Origin: an uncultured Bacteroidia bacterium
GTDB lineage: Bacteria > Bacteroidota > Bacteroidia > Bacteroidales > UBA932
Direction of reading: 5' to 3'
Length of the DNA stretch: 62,322 nt
NCBI GenBank assembly: GCA_902779785.1
Contig: CACZDC010000015.1
Location: 1 to 62,322, forward strand
In this document: in pieces, positions 23,752 through 54,391 of the stretch
Numbering within the stretch: the stretch's first letter is position 1
Layout of the letters: every line of letters begins with the position of its first letter
The notes under the pieces: generated by a model
Told to the model about the DNA's origin: nothing
Seen by the model: the letters and a program-made list of their open reading frames with translations, nothing else
Database searches by the model: none
Translations under genes and position numbers: made by a program

Positions 23752-25172
23752 TGGACGGCCGGGAAAATAAACTGCGCGGGTGGCTCCCTTGGGCCGCCCT
23801 CGCTTGTCTTGTAGTACCGATGTTCGCGTCGTACTACTTCGACGACATCTTCTCCAGCATATCCTTCATCTTTGATTCGGCCGAGGGGAATGCCCTGGGA
23901 TGGAACCAGGCGAAATACGGAGTTTACACCAGCGCTTACAGCGTGCTCTGCATCTTCGGCGGACTGGTCCTCGGAGGCATTCTTCTGGACAAGTGGGGTG
24001 TCAGGATAGCGGGAAGCTTTTTCGTCGTTATGATGGCCGCAGGAGCCGGGCTTGTGCTGTTTGCGCTCCTGACGGGCGGGAAACATTCTCTCGATCTCGC
24101 TTACGCGGGCGGAATGTTCTTCGGCCTCGGCAGCGAAATCGCCGGCACCGCGGTCAACCGCAGCATCGCCAAGTGGTTCAAGGGTGGCCCCCTGGCCCTT
24201 GCTATGGGTCTCCAGCTCGCTATCGCACGCCTCGGAACGGCCTTCGCAATGGTCCTTGCACCGAAACTCGTAGCCCAGCAGACTGGCCACGTCTACAGCC
24301 TCGTGGAATGCTCCCGTCCGGCCCTCTCCGGGATGGGGCTTATGGCCTTCGGCCTAATCCTCTGGGCTGTTTTCGTGGCAATTGACCGCAAGGCGGCAGA
24401 GGCTCCTTCCGGAGCATTTGCCCGTACAGGGTTGCGAAGCAACGCGGAGGAAGGAGCAGCTGCCGCCGAAGCGAAGGACGCTGCCGCCGAGGCCAAGGGC
24501 GGAGACGACGATAAATTCGTCCTGAAGGATGTGCTCAAAGTCCTCGGCAACAAGAACTTCTGGCTCCTCGGCCTGCTCTGCGTCCTCTTTTACAGCGCAA
24601 TCATCGCCTTCAAGAAATTCGCCGGCGCCATCCTTGTCCCCCGCTTTGACATCCCCGCCCAGACCGCCGGGTGGATGATTTCTATGCTGCCTTTCTCGAC
24701 GGTTATCTTCGCCCCTCTCTTCGGCCTTATGGTAGACAAGTTCGGGAACGGAACCCGCTGGATGATAGCCGGTTCGGTGCTTGCCCTGGCCGCGCACCTG
24801 CTGCTTGCCTTCGCCCCTCAGGGCGTTCCGGCCTTCGGCTATCTTGCGATGGTGCTCCTCGGCTTCGGCTATTCTCTGGTCCCGGCCGCTCTCTGGCCAT
24901 CGGCGACCAAAATCGTCCCCGAAAAGGTGCTCGGGACCACTTTCGCCCTGCTTTTCTGGGTGCAGAATCTCGGACTGTTCAGCTTCAAAGTGCTCGCCGG
25001 CAAAATCCTTGCTGCGGGAGCCGGAGCGGGGGAATCCGCTGCTGCAGTCAGCGTCGAACAGATGTTCGTCGGCCTCTGCGTCGCTGCGGTGCTCCTGGCC
25101 TTCATCTTCGCCCGTACCTCCCGGCTGCATCCCGAACTCCGCCTGGATGCTCCCAGCCGTTCTTCTGAATAA
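23751..25172 (+). CDS. MFS transporter (MFSD1-like), paralogue of the preceding gene, with a hairpin-element insert
   Basis: 473 residues and twelve predicted helices, clearly related to the upstream transporter: LDKWGVRIAGSFF, GGPLALAMGLQLAIARLG, SLVPAALWPSATKIV and FWVQNLGLFSFK match equivalent positions. ATG 23751 gives a one-base overlap (TAATG) with the upstream stop and is preferred to ATG 23736. The central cytoplasmic loop contains GAFARTGLRSNAE, encoded by a 39-bp hairpin element (24411-24449) found also inside cysS and the SpoU methyltransferase gene. Ala/Glu-rich repeats (EEGAAAAEAKDAAAEAKG) follow. The insertion keeps the frame and lies in a loop, so the transporter is probably functional. 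The substrate is unknown. Confidence 0.88.
   Translation: MDGRENKLRGWLPWAALACLVVPMFASYYFDDIFSSISFIFDSAEGNALGWNQAKYGVYTSAYSVLCIFGGLVLGGILLDKWGVRIAGSFFVVMMAAGAGLVLFALLTGGKHSLDLAYAGGMFFGLGSEIAGTAVNRSIAKWFKGGPLALAMGLQLAIARLGTAFAMVLAPKLVAQQTGHVYSLVECSRPALSGMGLMAFGLILWAVFVAIDRKAAEAPSGAFARTGLRSNAEEGAAAAEAKDAAAEAKGGDDDKFVLKDVLKVLGNKNFWLLGLLCVLFYSAIIAFKKFAGAILVPRFDIPAQTAGWMISMLPFSTVIFAPLFGLMVDKFGNGTRWMIAGSVLALAAHLLLAFAPQGVPAFGYLAMVLLGFGYSLVPAALWPSATKIVPEKVLGTTFALLFWVQNLGLFSFKVLAGKILAAGAGAGESAAAVSVEQMFVGLCVAAVLLAFIFARTSRLHPELRLDAPSRSSE
24411..24449 (-). repeat. In-gene hairpin element, copy 1 (inside MFS gene)
   Basis: Read on the minus strand the 32-bp core (24443-24412) matches copies 2 and 3 at 30 of 32 positions. 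The two differences are the paired bases of its small hairpin: GTTGC-TTC-GCAAC here, GTCGC-TTC-GCGAC in the others, a compensatory change. The preceding CTCCGC and final C are shared with copy 3. It is inserted in the opposite orientation relative to the host reading frame. Confidence 0.9.
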
Positions 25173-25178
25173 ATTTCG

Positions 25179-25186
25179 TATATTTG
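25179..25186 (+). promoter_or_regulatory. -7 box of dxs
   Basis: TATATTTG ends six bases before ATG 25193, so the dxs mRNA would be leaderless or nearly so. The box lies in the short gap after the MFS stop codon at 25172. Confidence 0.6.
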
Positions 25187-25192
25187 CAATCA

Positions 25193-27067
25193 ATGTACGG
25201 ACTCCTGGACAAGATAAATACGCCGGACGATCTTCGGAAACTGCCTCGCAAAGCCCTGAAACAGCTCTGCGCCGAGCTTCGCGACTATATGGTCAAGTGC
25301 TGTGCGGACAACCCGGGCCATCTCGGGTCCAGCCTAGGCGCCGTGGAACTGATAGTCGCCCTCCATTATGTCTTCGACACTCCGAAGGATAAGATAGTCT
25401 TCGACGTGGGCCATCAGGCCTATGCCCATAAAATCCTGACAGGCCGCAAGGAGGCCTTCAGGAGAAACCGCAGCGCCGACGGGATCAGCGGTTTCCCTTC
25501 AAGGAGCGAGAGCCCGTATGACGCTTTCGGCGCCGGCCATTCTTCAACCTCCATTTCCGCCGCCCTCGGTTTCGCCGAAGCGGCCAGGCTGAACGGGAGC
25601 GGGGAGAGGGCTGTTGCCGTGATCGGAGACGGGGCGATGACCGGCGGGCTGGCCTGGGAAGGCCTTAACAATGCAGGGGCCTCATCGGCCGACATCCTTG
25701 TCATCCTTAACGACAATAACATCTCGATAGACAAGAACATAGGCGGTCTCCACGACTATCTCCTGAGAATCACCACCTCCCATACCTATAATAAGATGAA
25801 GGGGAAGATCTGGGAAAGTCTCGGAGAGGGAAAGTTCCGCGACTGGATCCAGAAGAAGGTCACTGGCACGAAATCCAGCATCGTCCGGAGCAGCGGCGGT
25901 GATATTTTCGAAGCGCTTGGATTCCGCTATTTCGGGCCGGTGGACGGGAATGACGTCAGGCAGATGGCCGATGTCCTGAACCGCCTTAAGGACCTGAAGG
26001 GCCCTCGTATTCTGCACGTTCTCACGCGCAAGGGCTTCGGCTACGCTCCGGCGGAGGCCGACCCTACGACCTGGCACGCCCCCGGCCGTTTCGACCCTGC
26101 TACCGGCGAGAGGCTGAAGTCGGTGTCATCGATTGACAGGTATCAGGACGTGTTCGGTCAGGTTCTTATGGATCTCGCGGAGAAGGATTCACGCGTGGTC
26201 GGAGTCACTCCGGCAATGGCTTCGGGTTGCGGGATGAGCAGGTTCGCCGACCGTTTCCCGGACAGATTTTTCGATGTGGGCATAGAAGAAGAGCACGCTG
26301 TGACTTTTTCGGCCGGACTGGCGGCGGGCGGCCTCAGGCCTTTCTGCAACATCTATTCGTCCTTTGCCCAGAGGGCCTATGACCAGATTATTCACGATGT
26401 CGCCCTGCAGAAACTGCCGGTCGTACTCTGTTTCGACAGGGCCGGTCTGGTAGGGGAGGACGGGGCCACTCACCAGGGCGCTTTCGACCTGGCCGCTTTC
26501 CGCAGCATTCCGGGGACGGTGATTGCCGCCCCTCGCAATGAGCTGGAACTCAAGAACTTGATGCACACCGCCCTGGCCGCGAAGGAAGGCCCGTTCATTA
26601 TAAGGTATCCGCGCGGTTACGGCGAAGGAGTGGACTGGCGCGGAGCCGAGCCGTCCGTTCTAAGTGTCGGAAAAGGGGAAAAGCTGACGGACGGCCGGAG
26701 GGTTGCGGTACTGGCTCTCGGACCCGTGGTGAACAGGGCCGTCGAGGCCGCCGCAAGGCACAAGGCGGACTATTGGGTGTCGCCGGCCGTCTACGATATG
26801 CGTTTCCTCAAGCCTCTGGACGAGTCCATACTCGAGGAGGTCGCGGGCTATGACGTGATCCTGACAATAGAGGACGCTTGCCTGAAAGGCGGTCTTTTCT
26901 CTGCGGTCAGCGAGTACTTCGCCGGGAAGAAAAACGCTCCTATTATCAAGGCCTTGGGCATTCCGGACCGCTTTATCGCACAGGATTCCCAGACCGGCCA
27001 GAGGAAGTCTTGCTGCCTGGATGCCGATTCGATTTATTCGATACTTTACGAAATGATGAAAAATTAG
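25193..27067 (+). CDS. dxs: 1-deoxy-D-xylulose-5-phosphate synthase
   Basis: 624 residues. It uses thiamine diphosphate to join pyruvate and glyceraldehyde 3-phosphate into DXP, the entry step of the MEP isoprenoid pathway, and DXP also feeds thiamine and pyridoxal synthesis. Motifs: GHLGSSLGAVEL near the N terminus, GAGHSSTSISAALG (~110), the ThDP-binding GDGAMTGG...N (~145-175), DGNDV at the domain joint and GEDGATHQGAFD (~420) of the pyrimidine domain. A transketolase C-terminal domain closes the chain. The start is ATG 25193; a TTG nine bases upstream overlaps the promoter box. It may supply isoprenoid units for the prenyl synthase 6 kb upstream. Confidence 0.97.
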   Translation: MYGLLDKINTPDDLRKLPRKALKQLCAELRDYMVKCCADNPGHLGSSLGAVELIVALHYVFDTPKDKIVFDVGHQAYAHKILTGRKEAFRRNRSADGISGFPSRSESPYDAFGAGHSSTSISAALGFAEAARLNGSGERAVAVIGDGAMTGGLAWEGLNNAGASSADILVILNDNNISIDKNIGGLHDYLLRITTSHTYNKMKGKIWESLGEGKFRDWIQKKVTGTKSSIVRSSGGDIFEALGFRYFGPVDGNDVRQMADVLNRLKDLKGPRILHVLTRKGFGYAPAEADPTTWHAPGRFDPATGERLKSVSSIDRYQDVFGQVLMDLAEKDSRVVGVTPAMASGCGMSRFADRFPDRFFDVGIEEEHAVTFSAGLAAGGLRPFCNIYSSFAQRAYDQIIHDVALQKLPVVLCFDRAGLVGEDGATHQGAFDLAAFRSIPGTVIAAPRNELELKNLMHTALAAKEGPFIIRYPRGYGEGVDWRGAEPSVLSVGKGEKLTDGRRVAVLALGPVVNRAVEAAARHKADYWVSPAVYDMRFLKPLDESILEEVAGYDVILTIEDACLKGGLFSAVSEYFAGKKNAPIIKALGIPDRFIAQDSQTGQRKSCCLDADSIYSILYEMMKN

Positions 27068-27075
27068 CAAATTAT

Positions 27076-27106
27076 TTTGCAGATTCAGTTTTTATTTATA
27101 CCTTTG
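27076..27106 (+). promoter_or_regulatory. Promoter of the tRNA-tuf cluster
   Basis: TTTG (27076-27079), a 19-base gap, then TACCTTTG (27099-27106) match the Bacteroidota consensus exactly and precede the first tRNA by 34 bases. Confidence 0.8.
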
Positions 27107-27140
27107 CAGTCCCTTTCAGCGATGAGGGAGTCAATGAGTT

Positions 27141-27214
27141 GCCGATATAGCTCAGTTGGCCAGAGCACGTGATTTGTAATCTCGGGGTCGTGGGTTCGAA
27201 TCCCTCTATCGGCT
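27141..27214 (+). tRNA. tRNA-Thr (anticodon TGT)
   Basis: Acceptor arms GCCGATA/TATCGGC, a D-loop with AGCTCAGTTGG, anticodon loop TTTGTAA and T-arm GGGTTCGAATCCC give a full cloverleaf. CCA is not encoded. First of four tRNAs upstream of tuf. Confidence 0.96.
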
Positions 27215-27248
27215 CGAAGGGGCTTTGAAAATACTGAAAAAAGCCAAT

Positions 27249-27329
27249 GGGAGGTTCGCATAGTGGCAATTGCGGCGGACTGTAAATCCGCTCCCTCAGG
27301 GTTCGGTGGTTCGAGTCCACCACCTCCCA
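27249..27329 (+). tRNA. tRNA-Tyr (anticodon GTA)
   Basis: 81 bases with a long variable arm (class II), acceptor GGGAGGT/ACCTCCC, anticodon loop CTGTAAA and T-arm GTGGTTCGAGTCCAC. CCA is not encoded. Confidence 0.95.
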
Positions 27330-27335
27330 CACAAA

Positions 27336-27408
27336 GCGGAAGTAGCTCAGTTGGTAGAGCATCAGCCTTCCAAGCTGAGGGTCGCGAGTTCGAACCTCGT
27401 TTTCCGCT
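27336..27408 (+). tRNA. tRNA-Gly (anticodon TCC)
   Basis: Acceptor GCGGAAG/TTTCCGC with one G-T pair, D-arm AGCTCAGTTGGTAGAGC, anticodon loop CTTCCAA and T-arm CGAGTTCGAACCTCG. CCA is not encoded. Confidence 0.96.
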
Positions 27409-27414
27409 CTGAAA

Positions 27415-27486
<72 letters not shown>

Positions 27487-27545
27487 CTTTTTTGGTGCAA
27501 ACCGAAATTATTTGAAATACAATTGTTTAAACAATATTTAAAATT

Positions 27546-28739
27546 ATGGCAAAAGAAACATTCCAGAGAACCAAACCGCACGTCAACATCGGTACTATCG
27601 GCCACGTTGACCACGGTAAGACCACCCTCACCGCCGCGATCACCAAGGTGCTTGCCGAGCGTGTTGCCGGTAACTCCGACAAGGTGAAGTCCTTCGACCA
27701 GATCGACAACGCCCCGGAAGAGAAAGAGCGTGGTATCACCATCAACACCGCTCACGTCGAGTACGAGACTGAGAAGCGCCACTATGCGCACGTCGACTGC
27801 CCTGGCCACGCTGACTATGTCAAGAATATGGTCACCGGTGCCGCGCAGATGGACGGAGCTATCCTCGTCGTCGCTGCGACCGACGGTCCGATGCCCCAGA
27901 CCCGTGAGCACATCCTGCTCGCCCGTCAGGTGAACGTCCCTAAGATCCTCGTTTTCATGAACAAGGTTGACCTCGTCGACGATGAGGAAATGCTCGACCT
28001 CGTTGAAATGGAAATCCGTGACCTCCTCGCATTCTACAAGTTTGATGAGGACTGCCCTATCATCCGCGGCTCCGCTCTCGGTGCTCTCAACGGTGAGAAG
28101 CAGTGGGAAGACAAGGTTATGGAACTTATGGATGCCGTCGATGAGTACATTCCGCTTCCGGAGCGTCTTGTTGACAAGGACTTCCTGATGCCTATCGAGG
28201 ACATCTTCTCCATCACTGGCCGTGGTACTGTCGTTACCGGTCGTATCGAGTCCGGTACCATCCACGTCAACGACCCTGTCGAACTCGTCGGCTTCGGCGA
28301 TGAGCCTCGTACCTCCGTCGTTACCGGTGTCGAGATGTTCCGCAAGCTCCTCCCTCAGGGTGAGGCTGGTGACAACGTCGGTCTCCTCCTCCGTGGTGTC
28401 GACAAGAAGGAAGTCAAGCGTGGTGAGGTCGTCGCAAAGCCGAAGTCCATCACACCGCACACCGAGTTCAAGGCTCAGATCTACGTTCTGAAGAAGGACG
28501 AAGGCGGCCGTCACACTCCGTTCCACAATCACTATCGTCCTCAGTTCTTCATCCGTACCCTGGATGTGACTGGCGAAATCACTCTCCCCGCTGGTGTCGA
28601 GATGGTTATGCCTGGCGATAACGTGGAAATCACCGTCAAGCTCATCACTCCGGTCGCTATGAACGAGGGTCTCCAGTTCGCTATCCGCGAAGGTGGCCGT
28701 ACCGTCGGTGCCGGTCAGGTGATCAAGGTTGTCGAATAA
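27546..28739 (+). CDS. tuf: Translation elongation factor Tu
   Basis: 397 residues. This GTPase delivers aminoacyl-tRNA to the ribosomal A site. The P-loop [10 protein letters not shown] is at ~19-28, the switch I Thr in ERGITIN at ~60, DCPGHADY at ~81-88 and NKVDLVDD at ~136-143; beta-barrel domains 2 and 3 end [10 protein letters not shown]. The length is near that of relatives. It follows four tRNA genes closely and precedes tRNA-Trp, the usual Bacteroidota order. A 14-bp palindrome ATTGTTTAAACAAT (27522-27535) lies in the AT-rich leader. Confidence 0.98.
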
Positions 28740-28761
28740 TTCATCGGCAAGAGTTTCGATC

Positions 28762-28789
28762 AGTGAGGGCGCAGACGTGTGCCCTCACT
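28762..28789 (+). terminator. Hairpin after tuf
   Basis: AGTGAGGGC (28762-28770) and GCCCTCACT (28781-28789) form a 9-bp stem with a ten-base loop. Only a short TT follows, so it may be a weak terminator, an attenuator or an mRNA-processing site before tRNA-Trp. Confidence 0.6.
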
Positions 28790-28794
28790 TTAAC

Positions 28795-28865
28795 AGGGGA
28801 ATAGAACAAGGGTAGTTCAGCGGTCTCCAAAACCGTCGATGTGGGTTCGAATCCTGCTTCCCCTG
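28795..28865 (+). tRNA. tRNA-Trp (anticodon CCA)
   Basis: Acceptor AGGGGAA/TTCCCCT, D-arm region GGTAGTTCAGCGG, anticodon loop CTCCAAA and T-arm TGGGTTCGAATCCTG. It is located between tuf and secE as in other Bacteroidota. Confidence 0.95.
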
Positions 28866-28891
28866 CAAATATCAAAGGTTACGATTTGGTA

Positions 28892-29080
28892 ATGAGAAAG
28901 TTTTTCAACTACCTTAAGGAGTCCTATACGGAACTCACCAAGAAGGTCACCTGGCCGACTTGGGACAAGCTGCAGAATTCTGCGCTGCTGGTCCTCGGCG
29001 CCACGCTGATCCTTTCCCTGGTGGTTTTCATAATGGACTTTGCTTTCCAGCATCTGATGGAGTTTGTCTACGCACTGTAA
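28892..29080 (+). CDS. secE: Preprotein translocase subunit SecE
   Basis: 62 residues, the short single-helix form of SecE. The amphipathic N-terminal motif ESYTELTKKVTWPTWDKL is conserved, and one transmembrane helix (ALLVLGATLILSLVVFIM) follows. SecE stabilises SecY in the SecYEG channel of the inner membrane. The start is ATG 28892, set by the family N terminus; upstream in-frame codons fall in tRNA-Trp. It lies 16 bases before nusG. Confidence 0.95.
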   Translation: MRKFFNYLKESYTELTKKVTWPTWDKLQNSALLVLGATLILSLVVFIMDFAFQHLMEFVYAL

Positions 29081-29096
29081 CTGATTGAATCCAACT

Positions 29097-29660
29097 ATGG
29101 CTGAAAAAAAATGGTACGTACTGCGTGCCGCGGGAACCAAAGAGAAAAAGGCCGCTGAATATCTTAGGAAGGAAATTGAGAGACACACCGATCTGCAGGC
29201 AATTGTGGATCAGGTGCTCGTTCCTGTAAAGAAGGAAATCGTCACGAAGAACGGGAAACGCAAAGAAGTCGAAAGGCTGCTTTACCCGGGCTATGTGCTG
29301 ATTCACGCGGAACTCAATGGTGACCTCGAGTACGTTATCCGGAACGGTATCCCCGGTATGGCCGGCTTCCTGACTGAGAAGTCGGGTAACAGCCAGACCG
29401 AGCGCGTGCCCGTTCCCATCCGTGACGATGAAGCCCAGCGCATCCTCGGCATCCAGGACGAAAACGCTACCAGCGCAGCCGAGACGGAAGTCAATTTCTC
29501 CGTCGGAGAGGCTGTCAAGATTACTGACGGTCCTTTCAGCGGATTCGGTGGCATCGTAGAGGAAATCCTTGAAGAGAGAAGCAAACTCAAGGTTGTCGTA
29601 GTGATTTTCGGGAGAAAGACTCTCCTCGAACTCAGCTTTGCACAAGTAACTAAAGAATAA
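29097..29660 (+). CDS. nusG: Transcription termination/antitermination protein NusG
   Basis: 187 residues. NusG binds RNA polymerase through its N-terminal NGN domain and links it to Rho or ribosomal protein S10 through its KOW domain. The start MAEKKWYVLRAAGTKEKKAA is typical of the NGN fold, and the RLLYPGYVLI strand follows. The KOW motif is VKITDGPFSGFGGIVEEI near residue 140. The linker between the domains (~residues 100-130) is longer than in E. coli, as usual in Bacteroidota. ATG 29097 is preferred to the TTG upstream. It is the second gene of the secE-nusG-L11-L1-L10-L12 cluster. Confidence 0.96.
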   Translation: MAEKKWYVLRAAGTKEKKAAEYLRKEIERHTDLQAIVDQVLVPVKKEIVTKNGKRKEVERLLYPGYVLIHAELNGDLEYVIRNGIPGMAGFLTEKSGNSQTERVPVPIRDDEAQRILGIQDENATSAAETEVNFSVGEAVKITDGPFSGFGGIVEEILEERSKLKVVVVIFGRKTLLELSFAQVTKE

Positions 29661-29669
29661 TCATTAACA

Positions 29670-30113
29670 ATGGCAAAAGAAGTAACCGGATTCATCAAGC
29701 TCCAGATTAAAGGTGGAGCTGCTAATCCTGCACCTCCAGTAGGACCGGCGCTCGGTTCCAAAGGCCTCAATATCATGGATTTCTGCAAGCAGTTCAATGC
29801 TCGCACCCAGGATCAGGCCGGTAAGGTTCTCCCCGTCGTCATCACTGTCTTCAGTGACAAGTCCTTCTCTTTCGAGGTAAAACAGCCGCCGGTGGCCGTG
29901 TCCCTCAAGGAAGCCGCGAAGGTCTCCAAAGGTTCCGGTGAACCGAACCGTAAGAAAGTGGCTACCGTCACCTGGGATCAGGTGAAGGAGATTGCCCAGT
30001 CCAAGATGCCTGACCTGAATGCGTTCACGCTCGCTTCCGCTATGAAGATGGTAGCCGGCACCGCTCGCAGTATGGGTATCCGCGTCGAAGGCGAATTTCC
30101 TGAGAACATTTAA
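29670..30113 (+). CDS. rplK: 50S ribosomal protein L11
   Basis: 147 residues. L11 forms the GTPase-associated centre with 23S rRNA and L10-L12. The N-terminal domain signature [21 protein letters not shown] and the C-terminal RNA-binding motif AGTARSMGI are complete. It lies nine bases after nusG and 14 before rplA. Confidence 0.98.
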
Positions 30114-30127
30114 TTTACGCGTGTCTT

Positions 30128-30826: not shown

Positions 30827-30843
30827 TCAAGGAGGGAAGTGAT

Positions 30844-42779: not shown

Positions 42780-44141
42780 ATGTCAATGAAGATGAAGAAT
42801 TTTTTTAATCTACTCCTTTCGACTGTCTTCGCAGTCCTTCTTTTTGCTTCCTGTGTCAGAGAGGCAGTTGATATTCTCGTTATCAAAATGAGCGCCGATT
42901 CGGGATTCAAGGATTCTTATGCGTCAATCAACTTTGCCCTTACCAAGGCCTCCGGCTCGGATATTAGCATTTCTTTGCTCGTGCTGGACCAGCCTTCCGA
43001 GGGGAACAGTTGTGTTGCTGCCAGTAAGCTGACCCTGCCCTCAAGCGTCGTAGTAAGCGCAGGTTCCACCTCCGTTAAGCTGGATGTCGCCCTTGCCGAA
43101 GATGCAGTTGGCACCGAGGCCGTCATTGCCGTTGCCGGAGTTGTAGGTGCTTCGCTTGAAGGCGAGGGAGTCGCCCGCATCAAGACCGGCCAGAGCTACA
43201 GCGGCGGCGGCCAGGGCGGAGAAGGAGGCGGCGGTGGCGAAGGCGGCCTGACGCTTTCACTGCAGAGCAGTTGGACAGCCACTATCCTGGATGATGACTG
43301 GGAAACTGACGGGGAATATTATTATTATCCGGTTTCCGTGACTGCCCCTGGCTCCACTTACATCTATCTGGACACCTATTCTGACGCTGAACTGCAAGAA
43401 GAATTCAATGGCTCTATTGAGGATTTGCTTAAATACTACTCCGGCATTGAAGAAGGATCCACGGTTGAAGACTCCTTCTACACGGCTAGTGATGTGGTCT
43501 ATGTCCCTTATTATGAGGCCGGCCTGACCAAATGCTATATTATGGACTTCGACGCCAAAGGCAATCCTACCGGAAAGTACGGTGTGGTTGAACTGAATGT
43601 GCCTGACTATGGCGATGAAGGCGGTGGTGAAGGCGGTCAGGGCGGCGAAGAAACTACGATTCCATTTACCGGGACGACGACCCTCAAGTCGAACTGGACG
43701 CTCACCATCGAGGAGGTCGGCACAGACGAGTATGGGGATTATATACTGGTCGATGTCACCACGGATGCGCAGCTCTTTGCCGTGGACTATTATACCGAAG
43801 CAGAAATGATTCAGTATTTTGGCTCCGTCGACATAGCGGATATGCTGACAGCCTTCCAGACCACTGCTGTGAGTGCTTCGGCCACTTACACGAATCCTTC
43901 CGATTATTTCTGGACCCAGGAAGACGACGTGTACTGCGATTATTATGAGGGATACGAGAATGGAACGGATTTCTATATCCTTGAGTTCGGGACGGATTGG
44001 TTGGCCACGGGTAATTATGGAAAAGTCCATCTCAATGTTCCCGTGCTGTCTAATGCAAGGAAAGCGTTCCGTGTAAAAATCGCTCCACAGCATAAGAGAA
44101 CTGCTACAGTGAGAGTTATCGCTAAACACCGCAAAAAATGA
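42780..44141 (+). CDS. Lipoprotein with two Gly-linked related domains and basic tail, function unknown
   Basis: About 453 residues. The signal peptide ends VLLFASC, a good lipobox. An N-terminal beta-rich domain (~25-140) is followed by two Gly/Glu linkers ([15 protein letters not shown] at ~143 and GGGEGGQGG at ~280). Each linker precedes a related ~120-residue domain opening with a SSWTATI or SNWTLTI strand and containing YTxxDY and acidic Tyr-rich stretches. The C-terminal tail is basic ([23 protein letters not shown] spans the last 23 residues). The design matches the lipoprotein at 40682, so the two are probably paralogues. It overlaps cysS by four bases, so they are co-transcribed. Confidence 0.7.
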
Positions 44142-45673
44142 GACCACTGTATCTGACAAACACGCTGACCAGGACCAAGGAGCTGTTCAAACCCATTCAC
44201 GAGGGCCACGTTGGGATGTATGTCTGCGGACCGACCGTCTATGGCGACGCTCACCTTGGCCACGCCCGTCCGGGAGTTACCTACGACGTGCTTTTCCGCC
44301 TGCTGAAGGCCCTCGGCTACAAGGTCCGCTATGTGCGCAACATCACCGATGTAGGCCACCTCGAGCACGATGCCGACGAGGGGGAGGACAAAATAGCGAA
44401 GAAAGCCCGCCTGGAGGAGCTGGAGCCTATGGAGGTAGTCCAGACCTATACCGAGCGCTACCACGAGGCTATGCGCGAGCTGAATGTCCTGTCTCCGTCC
44501 ATAGAGCCCCGCGCTTCTGGCCATATCATCGAGCAGATCGAGACCGTCAAGAAGATCCTCGAAGCCGGCTATGCCTACGAATCCAACGGCTCTGTCTATT
44601 TCGATGTCGAGAAATATAATAAGGACCATCGTTACGGCATCCTTTCGGGACGCAGCCTGGACGAGACTCTGGAGGGCACGCGTTCCCTGGACGGTCAGGC
44701 CGACAAGAAAGCCCCATACGACTTCGCTATATGGAAAAAGGCTGAACCTGAGCATATTATGCGCTGGCCTTCTCCCTGGGGCGAGGGCTTCCCGGGATGG
44801 CATCTGGAGTGCTCGGTGATGGGCGAGAAATATCTAGGACAGGAGTTCGACATCCACGGCGGAGGTATGGACCTTATGTTCCCTCACCACGAGTGCGAGA
44901 TTGCCCAGAACGTCGCTTCGCGCGGCACTCAGGGCGTGCATTACTGGGTCCATAACAATATGATCACCATCAACGGGCAGAAGATGGGGAAGTCGCTGGG
45001 GAACTTTATCACCCTGCCAGAACTTTTCTCCGGTTCCCATCCGAAGCTTGAGAGGGCCTATAGCCCGATGACGGTCCGTTTCTTCATCCTGCAGGCCCAT
45101 TACCGTTCGACTCTGGATTTCTCAAACGAGGCCTTGCAGGCGGCGGAGAAGGGCTACAGGCGGCTTATGGCCGCCGCGCGGGCGCTCGGCGCCGGGGAAG
45201 ACTCGGGAGTGGGGGCACTTGCCCTCACGTCGCTTCGCGACCCTGTACGGGCAAATGCTCGGTCAAATGCCCCCACTCCCTCGTTACCTTCCCCGGCGGT
45301 TTCGGCGCTGGTCGAGGCAGTCTGGGAGGCGCTCTGCGACGATATGAACACCCCGATTGCCATCGCCAAGCTTTTCGAAGCAGTGAAGATGGTCAATGGC
45401 GGGGGGCTGTCCGAAGGCGACAAGGCGGCGCTCCGAGGGCTCTTCGACGATGTCGTTTTCGGCGTTCTGGGGCTTCGCGATGAGGAGGCCCAAGGCGGCT
45501 CCGGCAAGGCTGAAAAGGCCCTTGAGGGGGTTATGGAGCTTGTCCTGGAGGACAGGCGCAAGGCCCGCGCAGAGAAAAACTGGGCCGAGAGCGACCGTAT
45601 CAGGGACCTTCTCGCCTCCTTCGGCATCACTGTCAAGGACACCAAGGACGGCGCTACCTGGACATTGGAATAA
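44138..45673 (+). CDS. cysS: Cysteinyl-tRNA synthetase with hairpin-element insert
   Basis: 511 residues. A class I aminoacyl-tRNA synthetase charging tRNA-Cys. The HIGH-like signature is AHLGHARP (~37-44) and the KMSKS-like one is KMGKS (~284). Zinc ligands are seen as the Cys in YVCGPTVY, the Cys in LECSVMG and the His/Glu in PHHECE. In the helical anticodon-binding region, between AAARALGAG and [12 protein letters not shown], about 40 extra residues include [12 protein letters not shown]. They are encoded by the 32-bp hairpin element enclosed by a 13-bp inverted repeat. The insert is in frame and in a surface loop by family comparison, so the enzyme is probably active. Confidence 0.96.
45205..45280 (+). 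repeat. In-gene hairpin element, copy 2 (inside cysS), with flanking 13-bp inverted repeat
   Basis: The 32-bp core lies at 45229-45260 and contains GTCGC-TTC-GCGAC. It is enclosed by perfect 13-bp inverted repeats GGGAGTGGGGGCA (45205-45217) and TGCCCCCACTCCC (45268-45280). The core is identical to copy 3 over all 32 bases. Confidence 0.9.
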
Positions 45674-47388: not shown

Positions 47389-47400
47389 AAGTATAATTGG

Positions 47401-47877: not shown

Positions 47878-48407
47878 TGGATTTTGTCGAGAAGTTTTCG
47901 AATCTCCAGAAACACCTCGGCTTCAGACAGTTGCCTGTCGGCGGGGTCTGAGACGACGAGGTCGAATACATTTCCCGGAAGCTGTACGCGGCCTACTTTG
48001 AAATGAGCTTTGGAGACGGCGGCCATAAACGTGATGGGGAAATCATCCTTGCGGAGCAGTGAAATGAACATATCCGGCTCTCCGGAGAGGAGAAGGTCCA
48101 CTTTTTCCATTGCCGGACGGCCGTACCAGTTGAGGTCTTTTTTGAGGACGGTCGTCGTTATGGACGTTATGAGCCTCTCGCCCTCGGTAAGCTTTCGGAA
48201 GTCGAAGAAAAAGATGTCGCCCTTGATCCGGTTTTCGCGGAAGAAGGCGTTCAGTTCGTTTTTGCACTCGTCGAAGGAGGTGTCCTCGACATCTATGAAG
48301 GCGACGGCGGAACGGATCTCGCGGATAGGTGTTATCCGCGTCGCTTCCCTCGATGCGTGTTTGGCGATGCTGCGGCGCCTGAAGAACTGTTTTACCCCTT
48401 CGAACAT
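47874..48407 (-). CDS. DUF6913-like cytoplasmic protein, function unknown
   Basis: 177 residues, soluble, with mixed alpha/beta character. A basic N-terminal helix (FEGVKQFFRRRSIAKHA) is followed by AVAFIDVEDTS and FFFDFRKLTEGER. It looks like the conserved Bacteroidota family often labelled DUF6913, but I cannot confirm this without a profile search. The gene begins one base after the PfkB kinase gene and overlaps the next gene by four bases, so it is embedded in the operon. Confidence 0.65.
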   Translation of the reverse strand: MFEGVKQFFRRRSIAKHASREATRITPIREIRSAVAFIDVEDTSFDECKNELNAFFRENRIKGDIFFFDFRKLTEGERLITSITTTVLKKDLNWYGRPAMEKVDLLLSGEPDMFISLLRKDDFPITFMAAVSKAHFKVGRVQLPGNVFDLVVSDPADRQLSEAEVFLEIRKLLDKIQ

Positions 48408-48408
48408 A

Positions 48409-49404
48409 CTATCTGCTGTTGGCGGCGATAAGTTCGCGGATTTCCTGTTTGGCGTCCCTCCAGCGCGGAATGTCTATCTTCGTGCCGATGACCTCCACCA
48501 CCTTGGCGGCGATTATGGACCCGACCTCTCCGCAGACTTTCAGGGGCATTCCGAGGCTGTGGGCATAGAGGAAGCCGGCGGCATAGGTGTCCCCGGCACC
48601 GGTCGCGTCGATGGGCTTGGCCGGCCAGGGCTCTATGAAATGGTACTCGTCACCGCTCCGGACCATAGAGCCTTCCTTGCCTACCTTTACGACGGCAATC
48701 TTGCAGTGCCGGGCGAGTTCGTCCACGGCCTGGCGAGGCTCCATCTTGGTGAAAGCCTTGGCCTCGCTCTCGTTGGCGAAGACTATGTCCACGTAGTTTT
48801 CGACCAGGTTGTGGAAGAAGGCATCGTTGGACTCCACTACATTGTAGGAGGCCATATCTATGGAAATGATGCAGCCCGCGGCCTTGGCAAGACGTGCAGC
48901 CTTGGAGATAAGTTCCTGATTCTGGACCAGATAGCCTTCGATATGGAAGTAGTCGTAGCCTTCGAACTGCTCCGGGGTCAGGTCGTCGGGGCCGAGTTCC
49001 AGAGTCGCGCCCATATAGTCGGCGAAGGTGCGCTCGGCGTTGGCTCCGGTGATGAAGACCATACAGCGCCCGGAAGATTTCTTGCTGTAGAGCATCTGGG
49101 CCTTGACGCCATACTGCTCCATCGTGCTCTTGAAGAGGTTACCGAGGTCATCGTTGCCTATCTTTCCGAGGAAGCCGGCCTGCATCCCGAAAATCGCCGC
49201 GCAGGTGATAGTGTTCGCCGCGCTCCCTCCGGGCACATACTTGACTCCGTATTCCTTAAGCGCTTCCCAGATTTTGTCTCCGGTCTCCATATCCACGTGC
49301 TGCATACTTCCCAGGGGCAGGTGCCACTGGCGGAGAAGACTGTCGTCCGGAAGGACTGCGAGAATGTCGGTAAGGGCGTTTCCGATGCCAAGGATGGATT
49401 TCAT
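48409..49404 (-). CDS. PfkB-family carbohydrate/nucleoside kinase (adenosine kinase-like)
   Basis: 331 residues. The pfkB signature GGSAANTITCAAIFG (~60) and the ATP/catalytic-base motif DATGAGDTYAAGFLYA (~265) are intact. The N terminus ILGIGNALTDIL and MDMASYN-type strands resemble adenosine kinase-like members common in Bacteroidota. Substrate could be adenosine, ribokinase-type sugars or others. A minus-strand TATATTTG box at 49431-49438 is its promoter, and it is the first gene of the four-gene minus-strand run. Confidence 0.88.
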   Translation of the reverse strand: MKSILGIGNALTDILAVLPDDSLLRQWHLPLGSMQHVDMETGDKIWEALKEYGVKYVPGGSAANTITCAAIFGMQAGFLGKIGNDDLGNLFKSTMEQYGVKAQMLYSKKSSGRCMVFITGANAERTFADYMGATLELGPDDLTPEQFEGYDYFHIEGYLVQNQELISKAARLAKAAGCIISIDMASYNVVESNDAFFHNLVENYVDIVFANESEAKAFTKMEPRQAVDELARHCKIAVVKVGKEGSMVRSGDEYHFIEPWPAKPIDATGAGDTYAAGFLYAHSLGMPLKVCGEVGSIIAAKVVEVIGTKIDIPRWRDAKQEIRELIAANSR

Positions 49405-49430
49405 ATACTTGCTGGTTTTCTAAAAGCTTA

Positions 49431-49469
49431 CAAATATATACATTATTCAGGATTTTTCCATTAACTTTG
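49431..49469. promoter_or_regulatory. Divergent promoters for the PfkB kinase and flippase-like genes
   Basis: CAAATATA (49431-49438) reads TATATTTG on the minus strand. TAACTTTG (49462-49469) on the plus strand ends eight bases before ATG 49478. Confidence 0.6.
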
Positions 49470-49477
49470 TCAGTGAT

Positions 49478-50521
49478 ATGGACAAGAAAGTTGCAAGTTT
49501 TCTGAAATATCTGCTCTGGGGGGCGGTCGCCGTCGTTTTGCTGTACTTTTCCTTCCGGAGCGTACGCTGGGCGGATTTCGCCGCAGCCCTTACGAACTGT
49601 CGCTGGGGCTATGTGCTGCTGTCTATGGTTTTAGGCGCGATGGTGTTCCTTGTCAGAGGTCTCCGCTGGAGGATGCAGCTGCTGCCGATCGACCCTAAGA
49701 CTTCGGGAGTCACCTGCTGGAACGCCTACAATATCTGTATGCTGGTCAACCTGGTCCTGCCGAGGGTAGGGGAGGTGGTCCGCTGCGCCTATGTCACCAA
49801 GCATTCCTCACGGGATTCTTCCGGAGCCCGGCTTGCAAGTATGGACAAGGTTTTCGGGACGGTCGTCGTGGACAGGGTATGGGACGCCCTTTCGCTGGTA
49901 ATTATATTCGGGGTTCTTCTGCTGACGATGTGGGACCGTTTCGGGGCTTTTTTCGAGCAGAGTTTCTCTTCCGGCATCTCTCTGAGGGGCGGGTTTGTAT
50001 GGATATTTGTCCTGCTTGTCTGTGTCCTTGTCCTGGCGGTGTACCTGTCTTGGAAGTTCCGCGCCAAAGGTGGTCTGTGGGGAAAGCTATGGGAAATCAT
50101 CAGAGGCTTTTCCGACGGTCTGTCTTCCTGTCTGAGGATGCGCCGCGGCTGGCTTTTCGTCGTCTATACCGCTTTGATATGGATCCTGTACTGGCTTATG
50201 TGCGCAACCGTGATGTGGGCCCTTCAAGGGATTGACCCTTCGGCAGTTGGCCCGGAGCTTGCCGAGTCGCTCGCCAAGATTGATTCCCTGACAATGGCCG
50301 ACGCGCTCTTCCTGATGTTCGCCGGGGCTATGAGCTCGATTATCCCTGTGCCCGGAGGCTTCGGGGCCTTCCATACCGTGGTCGCGGGTGCTTTGCTTTC
50401 CATCTATGGGATACCCTTCCCGGTGGGCCTTATCTTCGCTACTCTTTCGCACGAGTCCCAGGTAGTTACGGATGCGATCTGCGGCGGAGTCTCTTATGTC
50501 GCCGAGACCGTGAGGAAATGA
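49478..50521 (+). CDS. Flippase-like membrane protein (LPG synthase TM-region/UPF0104 family)
   Basis: 347 residues with about eight transmembrane helices. The family is recognised by RGLRWRMQLLPI (~63), NLVLPRVGEVVRCAYVTK (~88) and SSIIPVPGGFGAFHTVVAGAL (~288). Related proteins include the membrane part of MprF, which moves aminoacyl-phospholipids across the membrane, but this gene has no synthase domain. The lipid or glycolipid moved is unknown. It overlaps aroE by four bases. Confidence 0.85.
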   Translation: MDKKVASFLKYLLWGAVAVVLLYFSFRSVRWADFAAALTNCRWGYVLLSMVLGAMVFLVRGLRWRMQLLPIDPKTSGVTCWNAYNICMLVNLVLPRVGEVVRCAYVTKHSSRDSSGARLASMDKVFGTVVVDRVWDALSLVIIFGVLLLTMWDRFGAFFEQSFSSGISLRGGFVWIFVLLVCVLVLAVYLSWKFRAKGGLWGKLWEIIRGFSDGLSSCLRMRRGWLFVVYTALIWILYWLMCATVMWALQGIDPSAVGPELAESLAKIDSLTMADALFLMFAGAMSSIIPVPGGFGAFHTVVAGALLSIYGIPFPVGLIFATLSHESQVVTDAICGGVSYVAETVRK

Positions 50522-51249
50522 AGCGTTTCGCCCTCATAGGCCATCCTGTAGCCCAGTCCCTCAGTCCGCGTCTCTTTGCTGCGGCCTATGGGGGAAAATA
50601 TTCCTATGAACTGCTTGACGGAGAGGATTTCGGACTGCTCTGGCAGCGCTTCCTGGATGAGTTCGACGGAATCAACGTAACTGCGCCGTATAAACTGGAC
50701 GCTTTTGCCAAAGTCGACTTCGTCTCCGAGGAGGCATCTCTCTGCGGGGCGGTGAACCTGGCCGTAAAGACCCCGGAAGGCATCAAGGGCTACAATACGG
50801 ATGTCGACGGGGTGGTGAGTTCGGTCCAGGAGTGCGGAGTGCCTGTGAAGAAGGCCCTTGTCGTAGGCTGCGGCGGGGCCGGAAGGGCGGCTGCCGTGGG
50901 CGCGCTCAGACTTGGCTGCACACTCAGACTATGGAACCGCAGCTATGGAAAGGCGCAGGCTCTGGCGGAGGAGTTCGGCGCAGTTGCCGTCGACAGCCTT
51001 GAGGCGGCGCTCCCGGGAGCGGATCTTCTGATCTATACTCTGCCCGGCAGCGCGGATGTTCCTCCGGCTCTTTCCGATCTGTCCGGAAAACTTGTCCTTG
51101 AGGCTGAATACAAGACACCTCGCCTTGCCTCAGTCCCGTCTTTGCGCTATCTTTCAGGCAAGCGCTGGCTGCTTGGCCAGGCCGTCTCCGGATATGCTCT
51201 TTTTACCGGAGAAGAGCCGCTTGTCTCTGAAATGGAAAAATTTTTGTAA
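50518..51249 (+). CDS. aroE: Shikimate dehydrogenase
   Basis: 243 residues, short for the family. It reduces 3-dehydroshikimate with NADPH in aromatic amino acid synthesis. Motifs: LIGHPVAQSLSPRLF (~7), GINVTAPYK with the catalytic Lys (~57), GAVNLAVK (~79), NTDVDGV (~96) and the Rossmann GCGGAGRAAAVGAL (~118). The end lacks the longer C-terminal helix of the enterobacterial enzyme, which is usual for Bacteroidota. It overlaps the flippase-like gene by four bases (ATGA). Confidence 0.93.
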   Translation: MKRFALIGHPVAQSLSPRLFAAAYGGKYSYELLDGEDFGLLWQRFLDEFDGINVTAPYKLDAFAKVDFVSEEASLCGAVNLAVKTPEGIKGYNTDVDGVVSSVQECGVPVKKALVVGCGGAGRAAAVGALRLGCTLRLWNRSYGKAQALAEEFGAVAVDSLEAALPGADLLIYTLPGSADVPPALSDLSGKLVLEAEYKTPRLASVPSLRYLSGKRWLLGQAVSGYALFTGEEPLVSEMEKFL

Positions 51250-51316
51250 TTAACTGAAAAATACGTAACTTGCGACCGCGATTGCAAGGGGCGATTGCGT
51301 AAAAACACAAAATGTT

Positions 51317-51790
51317 ATGTCTCTGAATAAAGTTATGCTTATCGGCAATGTTGGTGACGACCCGAAGGTCCGTTATCTTGAGCCGAACCCACAGAATCCC
51401 GCGGCTGCCCCGAAGGTCGCCACATTCCGCCTTGCCACATCGGAGCGTTTCCGTGACCGCAACGGGGAACTTCGTGAAAATACCGAGTGGCACAGCATCG
51501 TTGCCTGGCGGAATTCAGCCGATGTGTGTGAAAAGTTTGTCCGCAAGGGGACGCAGTTATTCATAGAAGGGAAGCTTCGCAGCCGTCAGTGGACGGACCA
51601 GAACGGCGGAACTCGCTATGTCACCGAAATCGTCGTGGACAATCTTCAACTTCTCAACCGCAAGCCGGAGTCTCAGGGACAGCCCCAGGCGGAAGCGGTC
51701 CAGCAGCCTGCCCCGGCTGCGGCTGCGGCGGTTCCTCCCGCGGCGCCGCAGGTTCAGGATGCCTCGTCGGACGACGACCTCCCGTTCTAA
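51317..51790 (+). CDS. ssb: Single-stranded DNA-binding protein
   Basis: 157 residues. The N-terminal OB fold (SLNKVMLIGNVGDDPKVRY, then WHSIVAWRNSADVCEKFVRKG) binds single-stranded DNA as a tetramer. The Gln/Pro/Ala-rich linker (~115-148) leads to the acidic tail SSDDDLPF, which recruits RecO, primase, exonucleases and others. A hairpin terminator follows. Confidence 0.97.
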   Translation: MSLNKVMLIGNVGDDPKVRYLEPNPQNPAAAPKVATFRLATSERFRDRNGELRENTEWHSIVAWRNSADVCEKFVRKGTQLFIEGKLRSRQWTDQNGGTRYVTEIVVDNLQLLNRKPESQGQPQAEAVQQPAPAAAAAVPPAAPQVQDASSDDDLPF

Positions 51791-51797
51791 GATGTTT

Positions 51798-51832
51798 AAT
51801 CCCCGTTTCCGGCTAGGAATTCGGGGATTTTT
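51798..51832 (+). terminator. Intrinsic terminator after ssb
   Basis: AATCCCCG (51798-51805) pairs with CGGGGATT (51822-51829) and leads into a five-T run. Confidence 0.8.
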
Positions 51833-51834
51833 CG

Positions 51835-51842
51835 TATCTTTG
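51835..51842 (+). promoter_or_regulatory. -7 box of lysS
   Basis: TATCTTTG begins just after the ssb terminator and ends 19 bases before the lysS ATG. Confidence 0.65.
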
Positions 51843-51861
51843 CGGAATATCGAACTAAACT

Positions 51862-53376
51862 ATGGCATATTATGAATTGAACGAGCAGGAGCTCGGCAGA
51901 AGAGAATCGCTTGGAAAGCTTCGCGAACTGGGTATAAACCCATATCCTGCAGAGCAGTATCCTGTCAATACCACAACTGTGGAGATAGCCGCCGGCTACG
52001 ACCCCGAAAAGGGCAATTTCGGTGATGTCTGCATCGCCGGCCGCATTATGAGCCGCCGCATTATGGGCGCGGCTTCCTTTATGGAAATTCAGGACTCGGA
52101 AGGCCGCATCCAGGTCTATGTCAAGCGCGACGAGATCTGCCCTGGCGAGGACAAGACTATGTACAACACCGTGTTCAAGAAACTTCTGGACATTGGTGAC
52201 ATCGTGGGTATCAAGGGCTTCGCCTTCTTCACTCAGACAGGCCAGCTTTCGGTCCACGCCAAAGAACTGACCGTCCTTTCCAAGTCGCTCCGCGTGCTTC
52301 CCATAGTCAAGACGGACGCCGACGGTACTGTCCACGACGGCTTCGCCGATCCGGAACTGCGTTACCGCCAGAGGTATGTGGACCTGGTCGTCAACCCTCA
52401 AGTCAAGGAGACCTTCATCAAGCGCACCCAGATCATAGGAAAGATGCGCGAGTGCTTCAATGAGGTGGGCTGCCTGGAGGTGGAAACCCCTATCCTGCAG
52501 CCGATTCCCGGCGGTGCAACGGCTCGTCCTTTCGTCACTCATCACAATGCCCTGGACGTGGATATGTATATGCGTATCGCCAATGAGCTTTATCTCAAGA
52601 GGCTGATCGTAGGCGGTTTCGCCGGGGTGTATGAGTTCGCCAAGAATTTCCGCAACGAGGGTATGGACAAGACCCACAATCCGGAGTTCACCTGCGTGGA
52701 GATGTACATTGCCTATAAGGACTACCTCTGGATGATGGAGTTTACCGAAAAGATGCTCCAGAGGGTTGCAGAGGCCACCGGCGGGGTCAAAAAGGTCATC
52801 GGCGGACAGGAGGTTTCCTTCGAAGGCCCGTTCCGCCGTCTCAGGATACTGGACGCAATCAAGGAATACGCCGGGGTGGATGTCAAGGGAATGGACGAGA
52901 AGGCTCTCCGGGAGGTCTGCCGGAAGCTGAACGTGGAGGTGTCTCCCGAAATGGGGGTCGGCAAACTGATCGACGCCATTTTCGGGGAATACTGCGAGAA
53001 GAATCTGATCCAGCCGACCTTTGTGATCGACTATCCCGTGGAGATGTCGCCTCTTACCAAGCGCTGCCGCTACGATGACAGCCTCACGGAGCGTTTCGAG
53101 CTTTTCGTCTGCGGAAAGGAACTGGCCAATGCCTACAGCGAACTGAATGACCCGGTCGACCAGCTGGAGCGCTTCGAGGAGCAGGCTGCCCTCAAGAGCA
53201 AGGGTGACGACGAGGCGATGTATGTGGACTATGACTTCGTCCGCGCTCTGGAATATGGGATGCCTCCGACCTCCGGAATCGGCATCGGAATTGACCGTCT
53301 GACAATGTTTATGACCGGGGCCGAGACTATCCAGGACGTGCTTTTCTTCCCCACTATGAGACCTGAAAAATTCTGA
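51862..53376 (+). CDS. lysS: Lysyl-tRNA synthetase (class II)
   Basis: 504 residues. The N-terminal OB anticodon-binding domain ([21 protein letters not shown]) is followed by the class II core: motif 1 around [17 protein letters not shown] (~211), motif 2 [15 protein letters not shown] (~262) and motif 3 [12 protein letters not shown] (~475). The length is that of bacterial LysS. It is followed six bases later by a 59-residue PspC gene and then a SpoU methyltransferase; the three appear co-transcribed. Confidence 0.97.
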
Positions 53377-53381
53377 AGTAT

Positions 53382-53561
53382 ATGAAACGTTTGGTTCTTG
53401 ACCGGCAGAATAAAAAAATCGCCGGAGTCTGCGCCGGCATTGCGAATTATCTAGAAGTTGACGTCACCGTCGTCAGGATTCTCTTCCTGATCGCGCTTCT
53501 GTGCGGCTCCTTCGGCTTCTGGGCATACATCATAGTCTGGGCCCTGGCTCCGGTTCAGTGA
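53382..53561 (+). CDS. PspC-domain membrane protein (59 residues)
   Basis: A very small gene. The product starts MKRLVLDRQNKKIAGVCAGI and continues NYLEVDVTVVRILFLIALLC, the full PspC signature, with one or two transmembrane passes in GFWAYIIVWALAP. PspC proteins sit in the inner membrane; in enterobacteria PspC senses envelope stress, but the single-domain form has no proven role. It starts five bases after lysS, and its TGA overlaps the GTG start of the methyltransferase (GTGA). Confidence 0.88.
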   Translation: MKRLVLDRQNKKIAGVCAGIANYLEVDVTVVRILFLIALLCGSFGFWAYIIVWALAPVQ

Positions 53562-54391
53562 GGACGGAAGCTGTCACTTCGGCGTCCAATCCGAAGATAA
53601 AACAGCTTCTCCAGCTGCAGGAAAAGTCGAAACTGCGGCGGGAGAGGGGACTTTTCGTGGTCGAAGGAAGGCGTGAGATTGAGCATTGTCTGGAGGGCGG
53701 CTTCCGTATCAGGACGCTTTTCGTATGTCCCGAGATTGCGGGCGAAGCGGCAATTCTCTCCGCGTCGCTTCGCGACCCTGTACGGGCAAATGCTCCAGAA
53801 ATGGCCACTTTGCCTGAAATGGTCGTAGAGCTTCCGGAGAGCCTGTACAGGAAAGTGGCCTACAGGGATTCCACGGAAGGCGTTATTGCCGAGGTGGAGT
53901 ACAAGTCGCTTGGACTGGAAGATCTGGCCCTTGGGGACAATCCCTTGATTGTTGTCCTGGAGGCGGTAGAAAAGCCCGGGAACCTCGGAGCGGTGCTCCG
54001 CAGCGCCGATGCCGCCGGGGCGGATGCCGTCATTGTCTGCGATCCGCTGACAGACCTGTACAATCCCAATCTTATCCGCGCTTCCGTCGGCGCCGTCTTT
54101 ACCGTGCCCACTGTCGTGAGCGCTTCCGAAGAACTGATCCCCTGGCTTAAAGAAAGAGGAATACGGATACTTACGGCTCAGCTTCAGGACTCCTCTTTAT
54201 ATTACGATTATGATATGAAAGGTGGAACTGCGCTGGTAATGGGGACGGAATCCACCGGGCTCAGCGAGCGATGGCGACAGGCTGCGGATGCTCATATCCG
54301 CATTCCGATGCTAGGCCGTCTGGACAGCCTGAACGTTTCGGTCTCCGCGGCGATACTCCTCTTTGAAGCTGTACGTCAACGAAATAGATAA
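53558..54391 (+). CDS. SpoU/TrmH-family RNA methyltransferase with hairpin-element insert
   Basis: 277 residues from GTG 53558, which overlaps the PspC stop; in-frame codons further upstream lie inside pspC. The N-terminal substrate-binding domain starts TSASNPKIKQLLQL with RRERGLFVVEGRREIEHCL. The C-terminal trefoil-knot SAM domain has EAVEKPGNLGAVLRSADAAG (motif 1), NPNLIRASVGAVFTVP (motif 2) and VMGTESTGLSERW with IPMLGRLDSLNVSVSAAI (motif 3). Targets are 2'-O-ribose sites of rRNA or tRNA; the exact site is unknown. The N-terminal domain contains [14 protein letters not shown] (~69-82), encoded by copy 3 of the in-gene hairpin element. The insert keeps the frame and lies between two family blocks. 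Confidence 0.93.
   Translation: MRTEAVTSASNPKIKQLLQLQEKSKLRRERGLFVVEGRREIEHCLEGGFRIRTLFVCPEIAGEAAILSASLRDPVRANAPEMATLPEMVVELPESLYRKVAYRDSTEGVIAEVEYKSLGLEDLALGDNPLIVVLEAVEKPGNLGAVLRSADAAGADAVIVCDPLTDLYNPNLIRASVGAVFTVPTVVSASEELIPWLKERGIRILTAQLQDSSLYYDYDMKGGTALVMGTESTGLSERWRQAADAHIRIPMLGRLDSLNVSVSAAILLFEAVRQRNR
53758..53796 (+). repeat. In-gene hairpin element, copy 3 (inside SpoU methyltransferase gene)
   Basis: 39 bp: CTCCGC, the 32-bp core at 53764-53795 with hairpin GTCGC-TTC-GCGAC, and a final C. The core is identical to copy 2, and CTCCGC is shared with copy 1. Confidence 0.9.

Follow-up and report, generated by a model that had tools for sequence, protein, structure and literature searches.

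Three copies of a palindromic element in one contig

The window analysed here is the 62,322-nucleotide contig CACZDC010000015.1 of an uncultured Bacteroidia bacterium (assembly GCA_902779785.1), which is contig 15 of a 2.78 Mb genome in 126 contigs (G000). Three of its protein-coding genes carry, in frame, a copy of the same palindromic element. The first host encodes an MFS transporter of 478 residues (23736-25172, + strand; PF07690 (MFS_1), E 5.1e-38), the second a cysteinyl-tRNA synthetase (cysS) of 511 residues (44138-45673, + strand; Pfam tRNA-synt_1e/DALR_2; PDB 6ujd) and the third a SpoU-family RNA methyltransferase of 296 residues with an uncertain start codon (53501-54391, + strand; Pfam SpoU_methylase; PDB 9h1k).

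A sequence-only reading of the window had described a 32-bp hairpin element at 24412-24443 (- strand), 45229-45260 (+ strand) and 53764-53795 (+ strand), and the three copies are present at these positions. The cysS and SpoU 32-mers are identical; the copy in the MFS gene has the opposite orientation and departs from them at two bases, which pair with each other in the GTCGC-TTC-GCGAC stem. As claimed, all three keep the reading frame of their hosts, whose identities are confirmed by Pfam. The repeat is real, but its 32 bp are the conserved tip alone; a covariance model built from 72 related copies (R1) extends the element to 78 bp.

In the MFS gene, the element spans 24391-24468 (- strand), with its tip (24411-24448) inverted relative to the gene between arms at 24391-24410 and 24449-24468 (E 2.3e-15; 17/20 arm pairs; stem z -4.2). 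The cysS copy occupies 45204-45281 (+ strand), with arms at 45204-45223 and 45262-45281 around a tip at 45224-45261 (E 4.8e-13; 17/20 arm pairs; stem z -4.4). The SpoU copy, at 53739-53816 (+ strand; E 3.1e-12), has partly decayed arms (53739-53758 and 53797-53816; 13/20 pairs) around its tip at 53759-53796, and by itself folds weakly better than its shuffles (z -1.9). A fourth copy was detected in the genome on another contig, where it is intergenic and lies within a terminator-like hairpin followed by a T run; three of the four detected copies are thus on one 62-kb contig. A 16-nt core has three exact matches in the window and six with up to three mismatches (shuffles: mean 0.41; 0/100 reach six). 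At Rfam gathering scores, the only matches in the window are tRNA.

The sequence-only reading had placed all three copies, the MFS one included, in predicted loops, and this holds for two of them. The cysS insert separates the two segments that align with PDB 6ujd, between query residues 350 and 391, and the SpoU insert falls in a stretch with two alignment gaps, totalling 16 residues, against 9h1k. That reading had not recognised that the element has 20-bp arms, that its tip can flip, that other tip families exist and that the element is confined to one genus, as described below.

Anatomy, reading frame and classes

Across genomes, 175 distinct copies were found by pattern and assigned to classes in this analysis: 99 resemble the window copies (class A), 61 form class C and 6 are unclassified, and the pattern for a class D caught none. 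The class A unit measures 78 bp (26 codons) and consists of a 20-bp arm, a 38-nt tip and a second 20-bp arm. The tip is made up of a small hairpin, GTYGC-TTC-GCRAC, followed by CCTRTMCGGGNAAATG. Outside the unit (-30 to +47), column information does not exceed 0.15 bit over the 99 class A copies (96 after copies with short flanks were dropped).

Class A copies lie mostly within genes: 87/99 are in open frames 600 nt or longer (random positions 94%, a similar share), which sets them apart from the extragenic location of repetitive extragenic palindromic (REP) elements, whereas only 20/61 class C copies do so and the class is mostly found outside long frames. Frames were assigned as the longest of six, a rule that misassigns some genes. 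By this rule, 67/87 class A copies share one codon phase, at nearly equal orientations (44 vs 43), and the same phase recurs in 101/131 copies of an enlarged set. The preferred phase encodes a shared 10-residue peptide one way and AFARTG one way back. Three tip forms were measured, giving elements of 66, 78 and 117 bp, all multiples of three.

Paired change of the arms

To describe the arms, we aligned 72 class A copies with an arm offset of 6 and at least 17 pairs, and therefore the better-paired copies. In this alignment, 96.7% of arm cells are paired (72.0% after shuffling) and 472 are double-change cells (114 in shuffles), and no shuffle of 500 reaches either value. Double changes are present in all 20 arm pairs, and sliding the partner by one column lowers pairing to 45-53%. 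Over 170 copies, the local score between the two arms has a median of 30, compared with 12 for arms of different copies.

The enlarged set comprises 131 copies from 33 genomes; newly added copies were required to have at least 12/20 pairs, 10/141 copies were excluded because no open frame reached 300 nt, and locus L368 gave no element. In this looser set, the median is 19/20 pairs, with 102 copies at 18 or more and 10 copies at 14 or fewer.

The same pattern is seen when orthologous sites are compared between species. Of 100 orthologous pairs, 86 differ at no more than 20/40 arm positions. Their 1720 arm columns include 440 with both sides changed, 386 of which still pair, and 142 with one side changed; 152 double changes would be expected under independence. 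Within one genome, in turn, tips differ at about 2/38 positions and arms at half of theirs.

Inversion of the tip at orthologous sites

The tip has the same orientation in 59 of the 100 orthologous pairs and the opposite orientation in 41, and both orientations occur at 17/31 multi-copy sites. In the clearest example, L433 and L438 have flanks that are 90% identical and arms identical at 40/40 positions, with the tip exactly inverted. Inversion is also found in L021/L092, L080/L130 and L428/L431, the last of which combines an inverted tip with paired arm changes. Among the closest 19 pairs (at most 8/40 arm differences), 9 are inverted. Between relatives, paired arm changes and inversion of the spacer are both seen. 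Homogenised arms and an inverted spacer are together the published mark left by template switching at short inverted repeats, as reported for yeast genes (PMC8604942), and template switching is proposed here from this footprint.

Occupied and empty sites

Comparison of orthologues had been set beforehand as the check that could refute an inserted element. At cysS, where 94 genomes gave a match, 30 loci were read: this tip is present in four, including the present genome, and a remnant in one. At SpoU, 29 loci were located among 30, and this genome's locus alone has the tip. Depending on the species, the same linkers hold this element, a different palindrome or none. Most of the orthologues read thus lack these residues, which refutes their being ancestral protein sequence. 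Chance similarity is rejected by the shuffles, and the one peptide that the copies have in common is met in two reading orientations and in unrelated proteins; we consider an ancestral or chance origin next to impossible.

Two further sites are empty. L138, which we take to be rsmH from its sequence, and L128 have neither the element, which is present in L043 and L164 respectively, nor arm sequence; together with the low column information outside the 78-bp unit, this assigns the arms to the element. L164 keeps part of both arms of another element of L128, with the tip absent, and is either a partial loss or an earlier state.

Repeats of the GTCATTTCGAGCGnAGTCGAGAAATC type also occur in frame in the cysS and SpoU orthologues L191, L199 and L224, at the same linkers, and more of them are present in L030, L128 and L219.

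Distribution across genomes

A 24-nt core, at up to three mismatches, was found in 13/150 genomes, all of the same genus (13/91, this genome included), and in 0/59 genomes of other genera. R1 has matches in 65/250 genomes of the genus, again counting this one (E <=1e-4), with up to 26 per genome, and in 0/245 other Bacteroidales among the matches listed (247 were searched, two being this genome and a congener); both R1 searches used stricter filters, which weak copies escape. The exact degenerate pattern occurs in at least 119 stretches, and 118 among the matches listed bear Bacteroidales or Bacteroidia in their titles, which often mention ruminants. Plasmids gave two 26-base partial matches to the MFS copy, and viral contigs gave no match to the exact degenerate tip pattern. 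The further copies that a mobile family would predict are therefore found, one more in this genome and many in its relatives, and by these searches the family is restricted to one genus of rumen bacteria.

One copy (L070) comes from a contig of 3,970 bases that bears the label Schwartzia (Firmicutes); about 100 of its bases are like Bacteroidales copies, and the contig may be misbinned.

Other tips on related arms

Some species carry tips of another kind. Genome G206 has 21 copies with a 26-nt tip (about 20 stretches fetched of 26 R1 matches), which differ on average at 1.8/26 tip positions and 9.5/20 positions of the left arm. G077 has 11 pattern matches with a TAAAAA tip. In G019, a 77-nt tip, with a 39-nt insert, makes 117-bp elements at two loci, L362 and L363 (C3, C31), sites that carry the 78-bp form in other species.

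Of 38 coding copies outside class A, 11 stand at sites with a class A copy elsewhere, a count that leaves out L087, L336, L379 and copies in short open frames. At sites shared by class A and G206-type tips, the best arm differences are 5, 9, 11 and 18 of 40; among 3664 unrelated pairs, differences of at most 5 occur in 2, of at most 9 in 30 and of at most 11 in 2.9%. Two or three sites thus combine arms of apparently common descent with a tip from a different family, and hairpins may exchange their tips. For the TAAAAA-tip family, no core exchange was shown: at the 5 shared sites, the arms are 17-24/40 apart, as different as those of unrelated pairs, so independent insertion at permissive linkers explains them equally well.

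Exchange was further assessed by comparing copies within and between genomes, in comparisons that overlap and are not independent. Over the 131 copies, mean tip differences (of 38) are 2.05 for paralogues, 2.79 for orthologues and 3.87 for unrelated copies, and arm differences (of 40) are 19.9, 13.5 and 20.9, respectively. In the pattern-found set (87 copies, 30 genomes), which was obtained with the tip as bait, orthologues have the closer arms in 40/52 comparisons (paralogues in 10) and paralogues the closer tips in 35/52 (orthologues in 12). The enlarged set gives 136/173 for arms between orthologues, with tips closer between paralogues in 105/173 and between orthologues in 59; when tips were shuffled 200 times, the paralogue share stayed at or below 58%, compared with the observed 64%. 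The 47 newly fetched copies alone have no tip preference (11 vs 12, with 4 ties; mean tip differences: paralogues 2.93, orthologues 2.79, unrelated copies 4.59). Full concerted evolution of the tips is thus supported in part only, given the tip-baited first set and the lack of preference in the new copies, and tip conversion is no more than a possibility. A tentative reading, which we hold possible but less likely than not, is that the tip acts as an exchangeable cassette: hairpins dispersed over a genome would convert each other's tips while the arms are kept, a new tip could displace those of resident hairpins, and each species would come to have its own tip.

Y1 transposases and neighbouring repeats

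Y1 transposase genes are present in 22/32 genomes: 11/13 with the core, 4/5 with the TAAAAA tip and 7/14 others, several of which later gave R1 matches. In 20 Y1 loci read (of 41 listed matches; with up to 1.5 kb of sequence on either side), no core was found. Palindromes occur in 11/20 of these loci and are of other sequence, and 3 loci show weak TAAAAA-type matches at 2-3 mismatches. Some other Y1 matches are near an element: on contig 58 of G020 the distance to a class C copy is 0.9 kb (6060-6275 and 7183-7206), and on contig 28 of G069 and contig 18 of G028 the distances to cysS copies are 2.0 and 3.5 kb, respectively. No Y1 match was obtained in G005 or G074, both of which carry elements. 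A REP-associated tyrosine transposase (RAYT) has no firm support as mobiliser, though with these neighbouring matches a link may exist. Target duplication was likewise not clear; flanks show a slight excess of identity (0.29-0.35 vs 0.26-0.27, as the best of 25 shifts).

Three of the Y1 genes (L270, L282, L285) are flanked on both sides by similar palindromes in a REP/RAYT-like arrangement unrelated to the element in sequence. The window has two other groups of repeats. A second family, approximately GCACGTTTTCTTGCGTTTCCCTGC, occurs in both orientations and partly in tandem with a 51-bp step at 19137-19223, 20608-20664 and 21839-21997. REP-like palindromes, TTTCACCCGCA...TGCGGGTGAAA, lie at 57902-58057 and 59852-59910, on either side of a hydrolase-like open reading frame, three in tandem with a 52-bp step plus one inverted copy.

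Discussion

Sequence comparison establishes a family of inserted elements that reside in frame, with covarying arms, a tip found in both orientations and sites shared between species. We regard it as probable that this is a genus-specific palindromic insertion family, located in frame at permissive linkers, whose hairpins are rewritten by internal template switching. The element would have entered genes in frame at such linkers and would be translated as an extra peptide. After insertion, template switching within the hairpin during replication would copy one arm onto the other, producing paired substitutions, and the same process would sometimes leave the tip inverted. Conservation of the tip may reflect selection on recognition of the element itself, exchange among the hairpins of a genome, or both. 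Template switching, mobile origin, tip exchange and translation are the parts of this account that we infer.

Several observations weigh against this account. The footprint is what suggests template switching, and the inversions might instead result from recombination between the arms or, in the looser pairs, from separate insertion events. Pairing of the arms might likewise be preserved by selection on a hairpin of mRNA or DNA, though this would not predict inversion. The number of pairs with any double change is hardly above expectation (22 vs 19.4; 27/500 shuffles as high). R1 match lengths range over 68-116 bp and include non-multiples of three, many of them in class C or with other tip forms, and the open-frame rule assigned L006 and L018, which are the same locus, to opposite strands. 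Sites were matched by script in what are apparently all draft or metagenome assemblies. Finally, no mobilising gene was found in a search that covered Y1 transposases as its sole class.

The strong covariation of the arms, together with a tip that is conserved even between unrelated copies from different genomes, would also suit a functional hairpin, that is, a DNA or mRNA stem selected for the benefit of host or element, in which compensatory changes are ordinary structural selection. Yet the hosts are unrelated genes, most cysS and SpoU loci read lack the element at the same place, arm sequence is replaceable, the 10 of 131 copies at the low end of pairing have decayed arms, and exact inversion of the tip is not predicted; we judge this explanation unlikely, although it is the strongest of the competitors. 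Because arms are site-specific and tips common to sites, one may also imagine that only the tip is mobile and that some 20 bp of target are duplicated in inverted form when it inserts, in which case L164 could be a pre-insertion state. The arms, however, follow one consensus that ends sharply at its outer borders, no arm sequence is present at the empty sites L138 and L128, and tip plus one arm (58 bp) breaks the frame that the three measured forms keep, so that target-derived arms seem to us very unlikely.

The same slim chance is given to an ordinary REP/RAYT or miniature inverted-repeat transposable element (MITE) family, recently spread by a Y1 or other transposase, with the oddities above as noise. 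The element is indeed palindromic, dispersed and non-autonomous, class C is REP-like in its location, and Y1 genes are common in genomes with the core; the matches near the G020, G069 and G028 copies raised our estimate for this explanation slightly, from a very low value to one barely higher. Against it stand the 20 loci without a core, whose palindromes are of other sequence, the two genomes with elements and no Y1 match, the lack of a clear target duplication and a divergence of the arms too great for recent spread. Insertion followed by template switching is the reading that we retain.

The element shares features with several known systems, which are compared here by description, from the parts of the cited papers that were available. 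Rickettsia palindromic elements are palindromic and dispersed, fall into several families and reside in frame in unrelated genes, where they are translated (PMC10969869). The sequence-only reading had likened the window copies to them, and the likeness is borne out: here, too, a palindrome lies in frame in unrelated protein genes. The likeness is one of description; the phylum is another, and the present elements measure 66-117 bp, compared with about 150 bp. Furthermore, the Rickettsia repeats lose their identity (PMC6649704), whereas arms at orthologous sites here change jointly and stay paired, and the available text of PMC10969869 and PMC6649704 makes no mention of tip inversion.

Coding palindromes of Nematomorpha mitochondria are closer in behaviour, being perfect inverted repeats in protein genes for which arm conversion by template switching has been proposed (PMC6649704). 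There, both arms encode conserved protein and, in the available text, no common tip is described, while the present element is an added linker with a conserved tip and belongs to a dispersed sequence family. The yeast repeats (PMC8604942) share arm homogenisation and spacer inversion in coding DNA; those are incidental short repeats, in contrast to the dispersed insertion family here. Template switching has also been described as maintaining RNA stems (PMC8794818). REP elements and bacterial interspersed mosaic elements (BIMEs) with their RAYTs (Y1) resemble the family as short, non-autonomous palindromes in many copies, class C in particular lying mostly outside long frames, and differ in that class A is mostly intragenic, has no conserved foot sequence and does not lie beside the 20 Y1 genes read. 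No earlier description from Bacteroidetes or Bacteroidales was found among the open-access papers searched, judged by title and abstract.

To our knowledge, in-frame peptides contributed to ordinary genes by selfish DNA have so far been described mainly in Rickettsia. A species-rich rumen genus now has such an in-frame family, and its species pairs catch arm copying and tip inversion in coding DNA, so that the mutational behaviour of inverted repeats becomes measurable. Should the cassette reading be true, the family would spread by rewriting resident hairpins besides, or instead of, new insertion. The element also calls for caution, since strong stem covariation in coding DNA need not imply a selected RNA structure, and it would provide one route for the acquisition of new linkers by core proteins, tRNA synthetases among them.

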